Of a stretch of DNA of 64,000 nucleotides, positions 17,336-25,206 are shown in pieces. The stretch lies in contig AGIF02000001.1 of the NCBI GenBank assembly GCA_000227505.4, forward strand, positions 1,942,035 to 2,006,034, given 5' to 3'. The notes below the pieces were generated by a model. The model was not told the origin of the DNA, searched no databases, and saw only the letters and a program-made list of their open reading frames with translations. Within the stretch, counting starts at the first letter, position 1. Every line of letters starts with the position of its first letter. The stretch is from a gamma proteobacterium HIMB55. Lineage in GTDB: Bacteria; Pseudomonadota; Gammaproteobacteria; Pseudomonadales; Halieaceae. A program made the position numbers and the translations under genes.

Positions 17336-17500
17336 GCCTAGCTCCTCTGGGTTGAAAGCCTGTAGTTTAAACCAGAACCCTCGGCAATGCGGAGGGCTTT
17401 CATAGGTAATAGATTCCTCGTCAAACACATTTTTAAGCAGGAACAGGTTCGAGCTACACTCGCTGACCTAATAACTTCTCTAAGGCAACTCCGCGCCCTT

Positions 17501-18709
17501 ATGAAAAAAAGAATAAAAGGCTTTGGCCCCGGCGCAATGATCGCCGCCGCTTTTATCGGACCTGGCACCGTCACGACCGCGACGCTTGCCGGCGGCAACT
17601 TCGGCTTTACGCTGCTGTGGGCTATCGCTTTTTCAACCGTTGCGACGCTGACACTGCAAGAGATGACTGCGCGATTGGGCTCGGTTGCACAGGTTGGCCT
17701 CGGCGAGGCGATTGCGACGCGAACATCAAGCACTGTCTTTCGCTGGCCCGCAGCGCTGCTCGTCATTGCCGCTATCGTCATTGGTAACGCCGCCTACGAG
17801 GCAGGAAATATCACAGGCGCTGGCGCAGGACTTCCAAGCTGGACCGTTAGCTCGCTTAACGCCTGGCCCTTGGTCATCGGCGCGGTGGCGTTTCTCGTGC
17901 TCAACCGTCAGGGGTCTCAATTTCTAGAGCAAACATTGGGTCTATTGGTCGTCGCCATGGCGCTTGTTTTTGTAGGCACTGCGCTGATTTTGCAACCAAG
18001 TATTGGCGATGTTCTGCGGGGCCTGTTTATCCCAACGCTACCCGAAAACGCGGGGCTTATTGTGCTCGGCATCATTGGCACAACGGTTGTCCCCTACAAC
18101 CTGTACCTGCACGCATCGGTTATAAAGCGCCACAGCAAACAAGGCATGACGCTCGCTGACGCGAGACGGGATATTCAGCTGTCTGTTGTCGGAGGAGGCG
18201 TCATCACGCTCTGCATTGCGGTGACAGCAGCCGCGGTGCTGCACGGCGGACAAAGCCCAACATCCTCCTTCACTCAGTTAGCGCCAACGCTCGCACCGCT
18301 ACTCGGGCAAACGAGTTTTGCCGTTCTGGGGCTTGGCTTTTTTGCCGCGGGCTTATCCTCAGCAATCACGGCACCACTCGCAGCGGCGTATGCGGTTACC
18401 GAGGTGCTCAGTCTTGACGCTGATAAGCGCGATCGCGTCTTTAAATGGACGTGGCGGCTCGTTCTGGTATTTGGGGTGGTCGTGGCCTCGTTGAGCCTAA
18501 AGCCCATCGAGCTCATTGTTTTCGCGCAATTCACCAACGGCCTGCTTCTTCCCATCACTGCCGCGTTCATCCTCTGGATAGCCAATGATTCAGAACTCCT
18601 TGGGCAACATCGCAATACGCTCGCGAATAATGCGATCGGATTTTTTGTGCTGGCGGTCACTTGCGGTTTGGGGTTGAGGGGCATCCTGCTGGCGAGCGGA
18701 TGGCTGTAG
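17501..18709 (+). CDS. NRAMP/SLC11-family transporter, atypical metal site
   Basis: This integral membrane protein has about eleven hydrophobic helices and the overall NRAMP pattern. The helix-1 motif reads IGPGTVTTATLAGGNFG, where canonical transporters have D-P-G-N. Helix 6 reads VVPYNLYLHAS, where canonical proteins have M-P-H-N. The Asp and Met ligands of the transition-metal site are thus Gly and Val, and Asn becomes Thr. I start at MKKRIKGFGPG (402 residues), matching family N-termini; an in-frame ATG 38 codons earlier exists, and the ribosome site is weak for both. It is divergent from the yebC-type gene. Its substrate may not be Mn(II)/Fe(II). Confidence 0.85.
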   Translation: MKKRIKGFGPGAMIAAAFIGPGTVTTATLAGGNFGFTLLWAIAFSTVATLTLQEMTARLGSVAQVGLGEAIATRTSSTVFRWPAALLVIAAIVIGNAAYEAGNITGAGAGLPSWTVSSLNAWPLVIGAVAFLVLNRQGSQFLEQTLGLLVVAMALVFVGTALILQPSIGDVLRGLFIPTLPENAGLIVLGIIGTTVVPYNLYLHASVIKRHSKQGMTLADARRDIQLSVVGGGVITLCIAVTAAAVLHGGQSPTSSFTQLAPTLAPLLGQTSFAVLGLGFFAAGLSSAITAPLAAAYAVTEVLSLDADKRDRVFKWTWRLVLVFGVVVASLSLKPIELIVFAQFTNGLLLPITAAFILWIANDSELLGQHRNTLANNAIGFFVLAVTCGLGLRGILLASGWL

Positions 18710-20494: not shown

Positions 20495-21381
20495 TCATAA
20501 GCTTCGTAACGAGTGGGCTCAGAACAACAACGCAAGACCTAGGGCGTCGCGGGTATACACACCTCGGCATCCCTGTGGGCGGCGTACTCGACACCCCCGC
20601 GATGCGATACGCCAATCAGCTGGTAGGTAATCCAATCAATACACCCGTGCTTGAGATCACACTAAGCGGACCGCAACTCGTCTGTGAACAAGCAGGCTCG
20701 ATTGCGCTGACGGGTGCCAACTTTGGCATCCACATAAATGGAGAGGAAAAGCCCAGTAACGCTCGGATAGTCCTTGCCGCCGGTGACACGATAAGTTTTT
20801 CCAACCCTCAAAAAGGTTGTCGCGGGTATCTTGCAGTTGAGGGCGATTGGCAGGTTAAGCGATGGCTTGGCAGTGCCAGTGCACTTCGTGTCGGTAGCCA
20901 GGAACTCCTACCCAATGCCGTGTGGAAAGCAGGCGACCACCTCGTGACACGCGAGAGGCGAGTGAAGCCGTGGTCCTCTCTGGCGCTCCAGCCCGGTCCG
21001 CCGTCGACTCAAATAAATGTTTACAAAGGGCCCGAATTTAACTGGCTGACTGACGAGGCGCAGGAGGCTTTACTCAGCACTCCGATAAAGATTTGCGAAC
21101 CCTCAAATCGAGTAGGACTGCGGACAGACACAACGTTGGCGCTTCAAGAAAAACACAAAAACACGGAGATGCTCTCATCCGGCGTGATGCCCGGTACTGT
21201 GCAGCTTACTTCCAGTGGCGAGACCATTATTCTGCTTGCTGACGGACAAACCATTGGCGGCTATCCACGAGTACTTCAGTGCAGCCACTCATCGCTCAGA
21301 TCACTCGGTCAACTCAGAGCGGGAGACACGTTTTCGTTGAGACTGATCAGTCAAAATGGTACGGACGCCGATCTCTACTAA
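20491..21381 (+). CDS. pxpC: 5-oxoprolinase subunit PxpC (KipA-like)
   Basis: This is the KipA/AHS2-family subunit of 5-oxoprolinase. Characteristic segments are TTQDLGRRGYTHLGIPVGG at the N-terminus, ANQLVGN, and the C-terminal SGVMPGTVQLTSSGETIILL with DGQTIGGYPR. The length of 296 residues is slightly short of many homologues but lacks no visible block. It is the last gene of the operon. The next gene is convergent across 32 bp with no clear terminator. Confidence 0.94.
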   Translation: MIISFVTSGLRTTTQDLGRRGYTHLGIPVGGVLDTPAMRYANQLVGNPINTPVLEITLSGPQLVCEQAGSIALTGANFGIHINGEEKPSNARIVLAAGDTISFSNPQKGCRGYLAVEGDWQVKRWLGSASALRVGSQELLPNAVWKAGDHLVTRERRVKPWSSLALQPGPPSTQINVYKGPEFNWLTDEAQEALLSTPIKICEPSNRVGLRTDTTLALQEKHKNTEMLSSGVMPGTVQLTSSGETIILLADGQTIGGYPRVLQCSHSSLRSLGQLRAGDTFSLRLISQNGTDADLY

Positions 21382-21413
21382 AAGGGATAGCGATTTCTTT
21401 GTATAGCGCCGCG

Positions 21414-21812
21414 TCACTTTGGCTCTTTTCGAGCCCGCGCACGTTCATAAGGCTTTTTGCTCGCCGAGCCAGACAAAGGTCGGAAGCTCAAACCGGATGA
21501 TGCGTTCTGTTGTGCCTCTATACCGGTCGTTGATGAGGCGCTCGAAACAGCTTCCCCTCGGTTCCCAACAGAGCTCATCGACTGCCTAGACAACACTTTG
21601 AAACAGGCGGACATTGCTGCCATTCCAGCCATCTTTTCAACGTCATCTGACCACCAAGCCTTGGCGCCGACGCGCATTTCACTCACCGTTTGACTCACGA
21701 TCACTGAACAATCGGTCGTCGCGGCACTCTCCGAGGAGCCTGCTTCAGCAGAGGCCTCGACCGAAGCCATAACCAGCATTAACGGCACTGAAAAAGACGA
21801 AAAGCGTTTCAT
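21414..21812 (-). CDS. Small secreted protein of unknown function
   Basis: I do not recognise this 132-residue protein. It begins with a credible Sec signal peptide: MKRFSS, a hydrophobic core and likely cleavage after VEASA. The mature part has an early Cys in TTDCSV and another in MSACFKV, which could form a disulfide, then a Ser/Ala-rich stretch and a basic tail (ERARARKEPK). AAGGTG lies about eight bases upstream of the ATG, which supports translation on this strand rather than the shorter opposing frame. It is convergent with pxpC and divergent from the TorF-like porin. Confidence 0.6.
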   Translation of the reverse strand: MKRFSSFSVPLMLVMASVEASAEAGSSESAATTDCSVIVSQTVSEMRVGAKAWWSDDVEKMAGMAAMSACFKVLSRQSMSSVGNRGEAVSSASSTTGIEAQQNASSGLSFRPLSGSASKKPYERARARKEPK

Positions 21813-21868
21813 TTACCCACACCTTAGAAAACTTGCTTCTATTAATTACGACTCGGCCTTGGGAGAGA

Positions 21869-21883
21869 TCACATGTCATGTGA
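21869..21883. promoter_or_regulatory. Perfect palindrome TCACATG-T-CATGTGA
   Basis: A 7-bp-arm perfect inverted repeat with a 1-bp centre, between the small secreted-protein gene and the NtrC-type site. The symmetry suggests a repressor or activator dimer site. Which of the two divergent genes it serves is unclear. Confidence 0.4.
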
Positions 21884-21936
21884 CTCTTGTTCTCCAAAAG
21901 CCAGACTCTCCACATCGCCCCGAAATGGACTTCTAG

Positions 21937-21953
21937 TGCACCACCATGGTGCA
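21937..21953 (+). promoter_or_regulatory. NtrC (NRI) binding site upstream of the porin
   Basis: The 17 bp TGCACC-ACCAT-GGTGCA match the NtrC enhancer consensus TGCACC-N5-GGTGCA exactly. They lie about 100 bp upstream of the sigma-54 -24/-12 element, a normal enhancer distance. Only one such site is seen in this gap. Confidence 0.75.
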
Positions 21954-22038
21954 AAGATCGAGAAGCCATGCTGGAAACTGCTACGCAAATTGGTCGTAAA
22001 TCTCAATAAATCCATTAAAAACAATTACTTAAAATTTT

Positions 22039-22054
22039 TGGCCCGCTTGTTGCA
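22039..22054 (+). promoter_or_regulatory. Sigma-54 promoter of the TorF-like porin gene
   Basis: TGGCCCG-CTTG-TTGCA fits the -24/-12 consensus TGGCACG-N4-TTGCW with one difference, keeping the essential GG and GC at the right spacing. The expected transcription start is near 22065, leaving a leader of about 75 nt. Together with the upstream NtrC site it predicts induction under nitrogen limitation. Confidence 0.75.
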
Positions 22055-22140
22055 AAAGCAGGAACGACCACGTCCACAGCGCTTACCAAAAAGTTCGGAA
22101 GGCGCACTGGTCCCCAATATCGTTACTACTAGGAGTAAAC

Positions 22141-22875
22141 ATGAAGACAACTTTTTCCCGAACTAAGAAAGCCGCGATCGCGATTCCTGCAGCATTGATC
22201 TGCGCTATGGCATCAACCGCGAATGCTGGCGAGTGGTCTGCAAACGCATCTATGACCAGCAACTACATTTGGCGTGGCCTGACTCAGACTGAAAACGAAG
22301 CTGCTGTTCAGGGTGGCATCGATTACGCAGCGGACAACGGCTTCTACATCGGCACATGGGCATCGAACGTGAACTACGGCGCAGGTGACGTGTACTCATA
22401 CGAGCATGACGTCTACGCAGGCTACGCGTTCAGCACGGGCGACATCAGCTGGGATGTAGGCTACCTCTACTACAACTACGACAGCGAAGCGGAATTCGAC
22501 TTTGGTGAAGTGTACGTGGGCATGGGAATTGGGGACTTCAGTGTCCAGTACAATCTACTCGCCAATACAGAAGCTGACGAGGGTGAAGGCCAAGACTTCG
22601 GCTTTGGCGAAGCCTACTACCTATCACTCGACTACGGGTTTGAGTTAAGCAATGGCGTGGGCGTTGGTCTACACATCGGACATCACGACGGTGATTTTGC
22701 CGAAGCGTTCAACGGTAACGCCAGTGGATACACTGACTACAACGTATCCTTCAGCAAGGACGGCTTTACGTTCATGATCTCGGACACCAACGTAAAAGGT
22801 GGTGCAGCCGAGGGTGGCTATGACAACGACAGCGTTAAGTTCGTTGTTTCTTATGCAGTCGATATTGCGATGTAA
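22141..22875 (+). CDS. TorF-family putative outer-membrane porin
   Basis: This 244-residue protein has a clear Sec signal peptide ending TANAG. It consists of alternating amphipathic beta strands rich in Tyr, Trp, Gly and Asp, with the family opening SMTSNYIWRGLTQTENEAAVQGG. It matches the TorF-type beta-barrel family (TIGR02001-like). A good ribosome site (AGGAG) precedes the ATG. The mature protein is very acidic, as in marine outer-membrane proteins. Regulation appears to be sigma-54/NtrC dependent, so it may admit a nitrogenous solute. The gene ends at a strong bidirectional terminator. Confidence 0.85.
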   Translation: MKTTFSRTKKAAIAIPAALICAMASTANAGEWSANASMTSNYIWRGLTQTENEAAVQGGIDYAADNGFYIGTWASNVNYGAGDVYSYEHDVYAGYAFSTGDISWDVGYLYYNYDSEAEFDFGEVYVGMGIGDFSVQYNLLANTEADEGEGQDFGFGEAYYLSLDYGFELSNGVGVGLHIGHHDGDFAEAFNGNASGYTDYNVSFSKDGFTFMISDTNVKGGAAEGGYDNDSVKFVVSYAVDIAM

Positions 22876-22917
22876 GAAATCGAGCTTTCGAACTCGCACT
22901 GAGATGTACAGTGCATA

Positions 22918-22945
22918 AAAAAAGCGCTCTTCGGAGCGCTTTTTT
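22918..22945. terminator. Bidirectional rho-independent terminator
   Basis: The hairpin AAAAAAGCGCTC-TTCG-GAGCGCTTTTTT is perfect, with a UUCG tetraloop and A/T tracts on both sides. It can end both the porin transcript (plus) and the convergent DUF3604 transcript (minus). Confidence 0.93.
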
Positions 22946-22998
22946 ATTTCTATGACCACCCGCTAAAACAGCATGCAGTTAACGTCCTTGAGCGAAAT

Positions 22999-25206
22999 TC
23001 AGCCCTCAGCAGGTATGATGTTGATCGGCGAAGACCATGCGCGCTCTTGAAGCGTTTTAGCCAAGTCAGGTCTTGGGTCTACGCCTGCTCGGATAGCATC
23101 CCAGGTCGACCAACGACAGGTGGGGTTTTCAATCACACGCGCGTAATAAAAGGCGCGAACCGTAGAATCAAACTCAGGGTCCGACCAAAGCGCTGAGAGC
23201 TGAGCCGCGCCCGTCTCTGGGTTAATTGCGCAGGTAGTGATATCCACCCTAGCACCGTTGTCAGGGCAACGATTCGTCTCGAGATTAACCGCCGCACCAC
23301 CAGCGCACGCGACGTCTATCACTTCCTCGTGTGTCTCGCCCTCTGCATCCACCCAGCCTTTAATAACCTGCAAGCGCTGCAAAGGCGCACTCGACGGATC
23401 AGCAGAGGCCATGACGAGGAAATTAGGCGCGCGTGCATCGTCAGTGGATAGTTCGATATCGCTCCCCATGGTGACACCTCGCTCGTAGGCTTGGTCAATA
23501 CCATCGGCAGCATCCAGCATGCTTGCATCGAGTTCAGCACCACCGAAGAAGCGCACTTTTATCCGTGGCCCTGAGGTTGCAAACACCTCTTTTCGGCGGA
23601 AAGCCTCATAGAGTGAGTCTCGGGTATTTTCTTCAGCCCAAGCCGCCGCGAGACCAGAAGCGCCAAACGTCGGGGTCGCGCCGTTTATGTAGACCTCACC
23701 ATTCACCTTCGAATAAGCAGCGCCACCTCGTGGTGATGGATTAGTGATTGCGAGAACACGACTGCCCCAGTAAAAGGTTTGCGCGTCCAAGCCTGTATAG
23801 GGAATAGATCCTCGCTGAACCGCCTCACTTGATAACAGACCGAGCTTGGAAACGTAGTTATCCTCCTCGATTGCCGCAGCGCCCGAGTGAGTATCGCTGG
23901 AGCCAATAAAGCCAAACTTATAGGGATTGGTAATACCTGACTGCTCTAGACTAAGTCCGTTGAGCAGCGCCTCGCGCACATAGGAGCCATTCACAGCACT
24001 CAGTGCGTTTGTGGCGACGCGGTAAGGCATGATCTCAAAACCTGCAAATTCATCTCGGTTTGAGAGCAATGGGTGCGTTTCTGATGTGCCCTTTACCTGC
24101 GTTATCTCGACCACAGGTTCGTTTCGCATCCGCTGTTCTGCGTAAGCGTCGTCGAGTGGATTACCCGCCCAATCTTCAAGCTTAAACATTTGGCCGTTTG
24201 AGCCATTCGAGTTGTGAGGAATGGACATGCTTTCAACACCCATGTCGCGAAGCTCATCCATCCAATCCCACAAATCCTCTGGATTTACCGAATGAAATCG
24301 CGAGAAAGGCTCACGCGGTAGTTTGTCGCTGCCCTTGAAAATGACGTTGCGATGCAAGTTGCCCATGTCGAGCGTCGATGCTGTGTATTCATAGGCAACA
24401 AAGGTCGTGAAGTCACCGGGATCGTTAAACTCCTCGGCCGCATCGATAATGTCTTCCCATGCCGACCGGATAACCCCTAATACCTCGTCGCGATCGATTT
24501 CGCCGGAGCGAACACCGGCTACGGCACTTGGCAAAAAACCGGCGAAGGTGCCGAGACGGCGCATCATGCTAACGAAATCAGTATCGTAATTATCGGCATC
24601 GTTCAGGCCGTGATACGGCGATGCAAAATCATTCTTAGAAAACTCGGTTACAGTTTCCGCGGATGCCTTGGCCAACCCCAAGAACATGGCGTGATCCGTT
24701 ACAGCATAAAAATCCAAGGGGCGAGATAGTTGCATATCGAAGCCACCGGGATTGGTAATGGCTTCGCCTTTCGCAAATCGATACGCATCGTACGGTGTTG
24801 CTTGAGTCCCCATGGCATATCCATCAAACGAGTATTCGGTGTGAACATGAAGATCACCGTAATAAGGTGATCTTTGCCCTGGAGACATGGCAGAGACTGA
24901 CTCGTCCGGACCATCATTACTGGCACTCACATCACTTGCACCACCGGTACGATCGAGCAAAACGGTATCTGGCTCAAAGACACTGGCCGACCAGTTACCG
25001 TCGGGATCTTGCTCGACGAGTAGCTTGTCTATTTCAGCAGTGCTCTCAATAACGCTTGGATCATTGTGCACATCGGCCATGGCACTGAAGGATTCACTCG
25101 ACTGCTCGACAGGCTCACCGCCGCAGGCGCTCAATAAACTCAAACATCCAACCGCTACAACAAGGTAACCAAAAGCGCTGATCTTCGATTGCGTGCTCGG
25201 TAACAT
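22999..25206 (-). CDS. DUF3604 lipoprotein
   Basis: This 735-residue protein has a lipoprotein signal with lipobox LLSAC, so it is probably anchored in the periplasm or outer membrane. The body matches the DUF3604 family: YYGDLHVHTEYSFDGYAMG and VTDHAMFLG resemble the His-rich metal-binding segments of PHP-type phosphoesterases. Further His/Asp clusters lie at SIPHNSNGSNG and GSSDTHSG. Members are common in marine bacteria and enzymatically undefined. AAGGTG precedes the start. Only 113 bp separate it from the PNPOx-like gene upstream on the same strand, but a promoter candidate fits in that gap. Confidence 0.85.
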   Translation of the reverse strand: MLPSTQSKISAFGYLVVAVGCLSLLSACGGEPVEQSSESFSAMADVHNDPSVIESTAEIDKLLVEQDPDGNWSASVFEPDTVLLDRTGGASDVSASNDGPDESVSAMSPGQRSPYYGDLHVHTEYSFDGYAMGTQATPYDAYRFAKGEAITNPGGFDMQLSRPLDFYAVTDHAMFLGLAKASAETVTEFSKNDFASPYHGLNDADNYDTDFVSMMRRLGTFAGFLPSAVAGVRSGEIDRDEVLGVIRSAWEDIIDAAEEFNDPGDFTTFVAYEYTASTLDMGNLHRNVIFKGSDKLPREPFSRFHSVNPEDLWDWMDELRDMGVESMSIPHNSNGSNGQMFKLEDWAGNPLDDAYAEQRMRNEPVVEITQVKGTSETHPLLSNRDEFAGFEIMPYRVATNALSAVNGSYVREALLNGLSLEQSGITNPYKFGFIGSSDTHSGAAAIEEDNYVSKLGLLSSEAVQRGSIPYTGLDAQTFYWGSRVLAITNPSPRGGAAYSKVNGEVYINGATPTFGASGLAAAWAEENTRDSLYEAFRRKEVFATSGPRIKVRFFGGAELDASMLDAADGIDQAYERGVTMGSDIELSTDDARAPNFLVMASADPSSAPLQRLQVIKGWVDAEGETHEEVIDVACAGGAAVNLETNRCPDNGARVDITTCAINPETGAAQLSALWSDPEFDSTVRAFYYARVIENPTCRWSTWDAIRAGVDPRPDLAKTLQERAWSSPINIIPAEG

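Follow-up and report, generated by a model that had tools for sequence, protein, structure and literature searches.

A TorF-family porin gene preceded by predicted NtrC and sigma-54 elements

The window (the whole stretch of DNA that was analysed, 64,000 nucleotides long) carries at 22141-22875, on the forward strand, a gene encoding a TorF-family porin of 244 aa, which matches the profiles TIGR02001 (8.4e-44, 149.9 bits, cut-off 47.15) and PF09694 (1.8e-25, 90.7 bits, cut-off 24) and is the one TorF match in the source genome. Its N-terminus is signal-peptide-like as judged by eye, and the AlphaFold2 model of the protein, made with 62 sequences (pLDDT 81.5), has 12 strands, the first two of which flank a family-invariant Y-x-x-R-G-x-x-Q stretch. 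A search of PDB sequences gave no match below E 0.09. Among PDB folds, the best match of the model was KdgM, with a TM of 0.79 by target and 0.56 by query, and the Foldseek E-values were 3e-5 for KdgM (4fqe), 9e-5 for Tsx (1tlw) and 6e-4 for NanC (2wjq). The model thus predicts an outer-membrane barrel. KdgM, NanC and Tsx, which are 12-stranded small porins, resemble it in fold and number of strands, although they are titled for, or known to take, sugars or nucleosides. Downstream of the gene there is an intrinsic terminator-like hairpin (22918-22945, forward strand, 12-pair stem with a T tail), therefore the porin is probably a one-gene transcript; in the whole stretch three such terminator-like sites were seen and 2.0 were expected. 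Divergent from the porin, on the reverse strand at 21414-21812, lies a gene for a companion protein of 132 aa, probably secreted, judging its N-terminus by eye.

Upstream of the porin gene we found a predicted NtrC-binding dyad or enhancer site, TGCACCACCATGGTGCA (21937-21953, forward strand), which reads TGCACC-ACCAT-GGTGCA and has no mismatch to the pattern. It is followed, after a gap of 85 bases up to the TGG, by a -24/-12 promoter element for sigma-54, TTGGCCCGCTTGTTGCA (22038-22054, forward strand), which faces the porin and has the form TTGGCCCG-N4-TTGCA. The sigma-54 consensus is YTGGCACG-N4-TTGCW, from which the porin element departs by one base (C for A), and its GG-N10-GC core occupies 22040-22053, with GG and GC 10 bases apart. 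Transcription of the porin would be expected to start near 22065, and a search of 21300-23050 for sigma-70-type sites, of which 1.5 would be expected, found none. The original prediction had described an exact NtrC dyad and a sigma-54 element one base from consensus and oriented towards the porin, and both descriptions were borne out.

Taken one by one, these elements are not enriched in the window, where shuffles predicted 13.4 sigma-54 patterns and 2.8 NtrC dyads at up to two mismatches and 12 and 2, respectively, were seen. Therefore, single-window statistics are no proof of function, and conservation across relatives is decisive for the dyad and the promoter. In the genome of 2,736,988 bases, a genome-wide dyad search detected a single exact copy of the porin dyad, besides six dyads with one mismatch (L003-L008), five of which lie within mechanically called open reading frames (ORFs) of at least 100 aa, the other (L004) overlapping the start of such an ORF. 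A strict composite pattern, consisting of GCAC-N7-GTGC, then 84-114 bases and then TGGCNNGN5TGC, matched the source genome once, at this porin, and its reversed-pattern control not at all. The pattern is thus specific but not sensitive, as it overlooks the promoters of glnA and glnK in the same genome. When applied to 140 family genomes, it had 102 matches, spread over 72 genomes, compared with 10 for the control, and 22 of these places (in 21 genomes) are at most 400 bases upstream of a TorF gene.

The nitrogen-response machinery and a homologous operon in Herbaspirillum

The regulators on which the predicted control depends are both encoded in the source genome: rpoN was recognized by the sigma-54 profile TIGR02395 above its cut-off, and ntrBC by TIGR01818 (705.8 bits) and NF008293 (307.7 bits), also above their cut-offs. 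The genome's own glnA and glnK-amtB are each preceded by two dyads and a sigma-54 element, weak in the case of glnK-amtB, in a layout similar to that of the porin. At the locus of a second ammonium transporter (L122) no dyad was found at up to three mismatches. The glnK-amtB genes lie about 86 kb from the porin and have no porin before them. Between the glnK promoter and glnK there is an ORF of 28 codons (L121:3886-3972, reverse strand) that begins 83 bases beyond the first base of the weak sigma-54 element, close to the position at which the TorF gene begins in relatives of the genus (88 bases in several of them); this ORF is possibly a leader or a relic.

The nlmA-glnK-amtB operon of Herbaspirillum seropedicae is reported to be NtrC-dependent, an amtB::lacZ fusion being 21-fold higher when nitrogen was limiting (PMC3023670). 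We located Herbaspirillum loci with a primer from that paper, and among the best 80 of 92 stretches the nlmA locus occurred in at least ten records titled Herbaspirillum, none of them titled H. seropedicae. In the H. huttiense record, the one that was scanned out of the ten, the ORF before glnK matches TIGR02001 (8.2e-49), and therefore the Herbaspirillum NlmA is a TorF protein. A sigma-54 element with up to two mismatches and a dyad in the same layout precede the ORF in eight of the ten records; in the remaining two, the ORF had been given a start too far upstream in one and the upstream stretch was absent in the other. The Herbaspirillum operon is thus similar to our locus in its TorF protein (H. 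huttiense) and in having a sigma-54 element and, about 100 bases upstream, an NtrC-like dyad arranged in the same order. Nitrogen control is likewise common to both, although in the window porin it is predicted from sequence elements, whereas for H. seropedicae it is reported (PMC3023670). In contrast to the window porin, which seems to be transcribed singly, is followed by a terminator and has a divergent partner, nlmA precedes glnK-amtB. Among the matches listed for open-licence PMC papers, only PMC3023670 and PMC5955497 were relevant to the TorF/NlmA nitrogen question; the excerpts of PMC5491218, PMC5648810 and PMC8674442 name neither NlmA nor TorF, and no match to TorF could be made for the porins of the Burkholderia NtrC regulon in the excerpt of PMC5491218.

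The genome encodes seven strong AAA matches of the bEBP type (E <=1e-49) and the dyads vary among relatives, so that another regulator or another bEBP-type protein could be imagined at the porin dyad instead of NtrC. We consider this unlikely, given that the same type of dyad stands before the genome's own glnA and glnK-amtB, as well as before the Herbaspirillum nlmA-glnK-amtB, an operon reported as NtrC-dependent in H. seropedicae (PMC3023670). On this view, NtrC would bind the porin dyad and the gene would be induced under nitrogen limitation.

Conservation of the composite promoter upstream of TorF genes

Conservation of both elements upstream of orthologues was evaluated by comparing the neighbourhoods of 83 TorF genes in 81 genomes of the family. 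These comprised 36 close orthologues (60-100% identity), which are all those found among the 140 family genomes, and 47 distant TorFs (31-44% identity) from 45 loci picked to cover genera, the distant kind being present in 88 genomes. A simple heuristic placed the starts of the TorF genes, and control ORFs were taken from their first start codon. The relaxed composite required a dyad YGCAC-N7-GTGCR with at most two mismatches, a rule chosen after inspection of the genome's own glnA and glnK sites and of relatives, located 55-145 bases before a sigma-54 element with GG and GC fixed and at most three mismatches, all within 400 bases upstream. This composite was detected upstream of 76 of the 83 TorF genes (33 of the 36 close and 43 of the 47 distant), versus only one of 617 control ORFs from the same loci at a mismatch sum of up to 4 and three at a sum of up to 5.

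The composite is missing in the close orthologues L101, L103 and L104, all of one genus, whose fourth locus (L102) has a weak sigma-54 element only; because of this, NtrC/sigma-54 control may have been lost in that genus. Among the distant TorFs it is missing in L161 and L166 and, where a locus has two copies (L170 and L186), before one copy of the pair, and several close relatives have a degenerate dyad.

The TorF of Shewanella oneidensis (SO4694) is annotated as a porin of the TMAO reductase system (PMC5955497). Both this protein and the window porin belong to the profile family TIGR02001/PF09694, by NCBIfam naming, and are predicted barrels; the window porin differs in having a nitrogen-response promoter. 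This annotation, together with the loss of the sigma-54 consensus in one genus of the window clade, could suggest a channel turned into a general or TMAO-type porin, with the nitrogen promoter as an inherited relic. Such a history is improbable, considering that 33 of the 36 close orthologues keep the composite and that the promoter has changed less than the sequence around it: in an alignment of the window with eight near relatives, 12 of 17 columns of the sigma-54 element and 8 of 17 of the dyad are invariant, versus 33 of 286 in the remainder.

Taken together, the regulators present in the genome, the similar layout at its own glnA and glnK, the conserved composite and the homologous operon reported to be NtrC-dependent (PMC3023670) lend the proposed NtrC/sigma-54 control of the porin strong support at the level of sequence.

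The neighbouring pxpABC genes

About 760 bases separate the end of pxpC from the porin on the same strand, an order common to the window and two relatives (L080 and L081), and it could be supposed that the porin takes up 5-oxoproline or peptides jointly with the adjoining pxpABC. This is highly improbable, since pxpABC adjoins the porin in only 3 of the 36 close orthologues, with no pxpABC match in the other 33 (although the upstream sequence is truncated in two, L079 and L100), and a divergent ORF separates pxpABC from the porin. In addition, no dyad with up to two mismatches was found near pxpABC among the dyads listed, and the genome scan gave no composite there. With this order restricted to the window and two relatives and no dyad or composite listed at pxpABC, the idea of a pyroglutamate or peptide substrate put forward in the original prediction is unsupported, and pxpABC was rejected as the functional partner of the porin.

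A gene for an Nramp-family transporter lies directly before pxpABC on the same strand (17387-18709 of the window) and is retained in L080 and L081, the two relatives with pxpABC; this transporter is a candidate for serving the 5-oxoprolinase operon.

A separate TorF clade uncoupled from glnK-amtB

TorF is present in 124 of the 140 family genomes. Among the distant TorFs, 46 of 47 lie directly before glnK and the remaining one before amtB, and none of the 36 members of the close-orthologue clade is directly before glnK. The two TorF kinds were never found together in one of the 140 genomes (the two TorF matches of G102 seem to be parts of one gene divided between contig ends). Of the 57 genomes in the genus of the window, many of them incomplete, 27 have the window kind and 23 the distant kind, and in 7 none was found. 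In four loci of one genus (L108, L110, L112 and L113) the lone porin and glnK-amtB are divergent and about 3 kb apart, possibly an intermediate arrangement.

In a quick tree, which has many long branches and from which rows shorter than 200 aa and class rows longer than 300 aa were excluded, the class rows being trimmed to their last 245 residues, the window porin clade forms one side of a fully supported branch. It joins, with a support of 97, 12 glnK-linked and 3 unlinked TorFs of other families, and 45 distant copies of the family stand apart from it (99); two further distant copies, L165 and L166, are placed on a very long branch. With the clade grouping with glnK-linked TorFs of other families in this quick tree, the view of the window porin as a local relocation of an operon copy was unsupported. 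A C-terminal aromatic residue was also considered as a mark separating the two TorF clades and was rejected, since the last residue is usually M or L in both.

Across the wider class, the TorF family is represented in 204 of 377 genomes. Of 68 class loci, drawn non-randomly from the higher-scoring matches, 42 have TorF before glnK, 1 before amtB and 25 before neither. The composite was detected in 43 of these loci, comprising 32 of the 42 glnK-linked (two of the 10 lacking it have only 118-130 upstream bases), none of the single amtB-linked and 11 of the 25 unlinked.

Some TorF loci have further peculiarities. L170 and L186 show the order torF-glnK-amtB-torF-glnK in the same direction, with the composite before one torF only in each, and in G127 two TorF genes in the same direction flank glnK-amtB; these arrangements look like duplications of the torF-glnK unit. 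In one family of the class (L197, L216, L218 and L220) TorF occurs as a protein of about 465 aa that carries two TorF stretches in its chain, and no glnK was seen directly after this double gene.

The divergent companion protein

The companion is found in 35 of the 36 loci of close orthologues, the 36th locus ending at a contig end, and in L105 it starts about 1.35 kb from the porin. It was found beside none of the 47 distant TorF genes. In the family it is present in 36 of 140 genomes, exactly the 36 with the porin clade (Fisher 3e-34, with relatedness ignored). Outside the family, matches were detected in 3 of 376 other genomes of the class. One of them (G159, locus L349), from another family, has the companion divergent beside a TorF that groups with the window clade, with a weaker composite, and those in G298 and G190 are weak and have no adjoining TorF. 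A protein weakly related to the hairpin domain of the companion is encoded at L350:4697-5071 (reverse strand), with no TorF beside it, and the same locus has an ORF that by eye resembles an ammonium transporter (L350:8410-9807, forward strand).

Two cysteines and a C-terminal K-P-Y-(E/Q)-R, which reads KPYER in the window protein, are among the invariant residues of the companion, and its AlphaFold2 model has a confident helical hairpin (residues 35-53 and 56-83) followed by a region of low confidence. With 27 members, nothing below E 0.013 was found in Pfam, searches of NCBIfam and of PDB sequences gave no credible match, and no PDB fold was matched at E <=0.001. No sigma-54 promoter facing the companion was detected within three mismatches, except in L110 and L112, both of one genus. 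Judging from these comparisons, the companion is an undescribed constant partner of the uncoupled porin clade, and we regard it as the new element at this locus.

A proposed role in the nitrogen response

The explanation that we favour, and hold to be quite probable, is that the general nitrogen response includes this porin as an outer-membrane channel of the TorF/NlmA type, controlled by NtrC and sigma-54, uncoupled from glnK-amtB and paired with the divergent companion. When nitrogen is short, phosphorylated NtrC would bind the dyad at 21937-21953 and activate the sigma-54 polymerase at 22038-22054, leading to expression of the porin. As for the substrate of the channel, we infer a small nitrogenous solute, to which the porin would open the outer membrane and which would then be imported by nitrogen-regulated inner-membrane systems. 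AmtB is the usual genetic partner of this type of porin, the TorF gene standing first in a torF-glnK-amtB row in nearly all distant family members that were compared. In the window lineage the other TorF clade stands alone under its own predicted NtrC/sigma-54 promoter, paired with a small, divergently encoded and probably secreted protein. From its sequence elements, the control of the porin is of a known kind, NtrC/sigma-54 acting on an NlmA/TorF porin, found here as an uncoupled variant.

More tentatively, and with some doubt, it is possible to suppose that the porin and the companion depend on each other as the two parts of a device for uptake across the outer membrane in the nitrogen response. 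In it the companion, a disulfide-tied helical hairpin with a disordered tether and an invariant C-terminal KPY(E/Q)R tail, would dock where the barrel opens to the periplasm and gate it, anchor it or pass on the substrate. In these lineages such a device would replace the porin of the torF-glnK-amtB row, and, if this is true, the combination of a small porin and its own soluble partner, controlled by NtrC, would be new.

An NtrC/sigma-54 promoter on TorF in many families would make outer-membrane passage under nitrogen starvation testable in a culturable strain, and the constant partner gene reduces the list to two genes to be deleted and co-purified.
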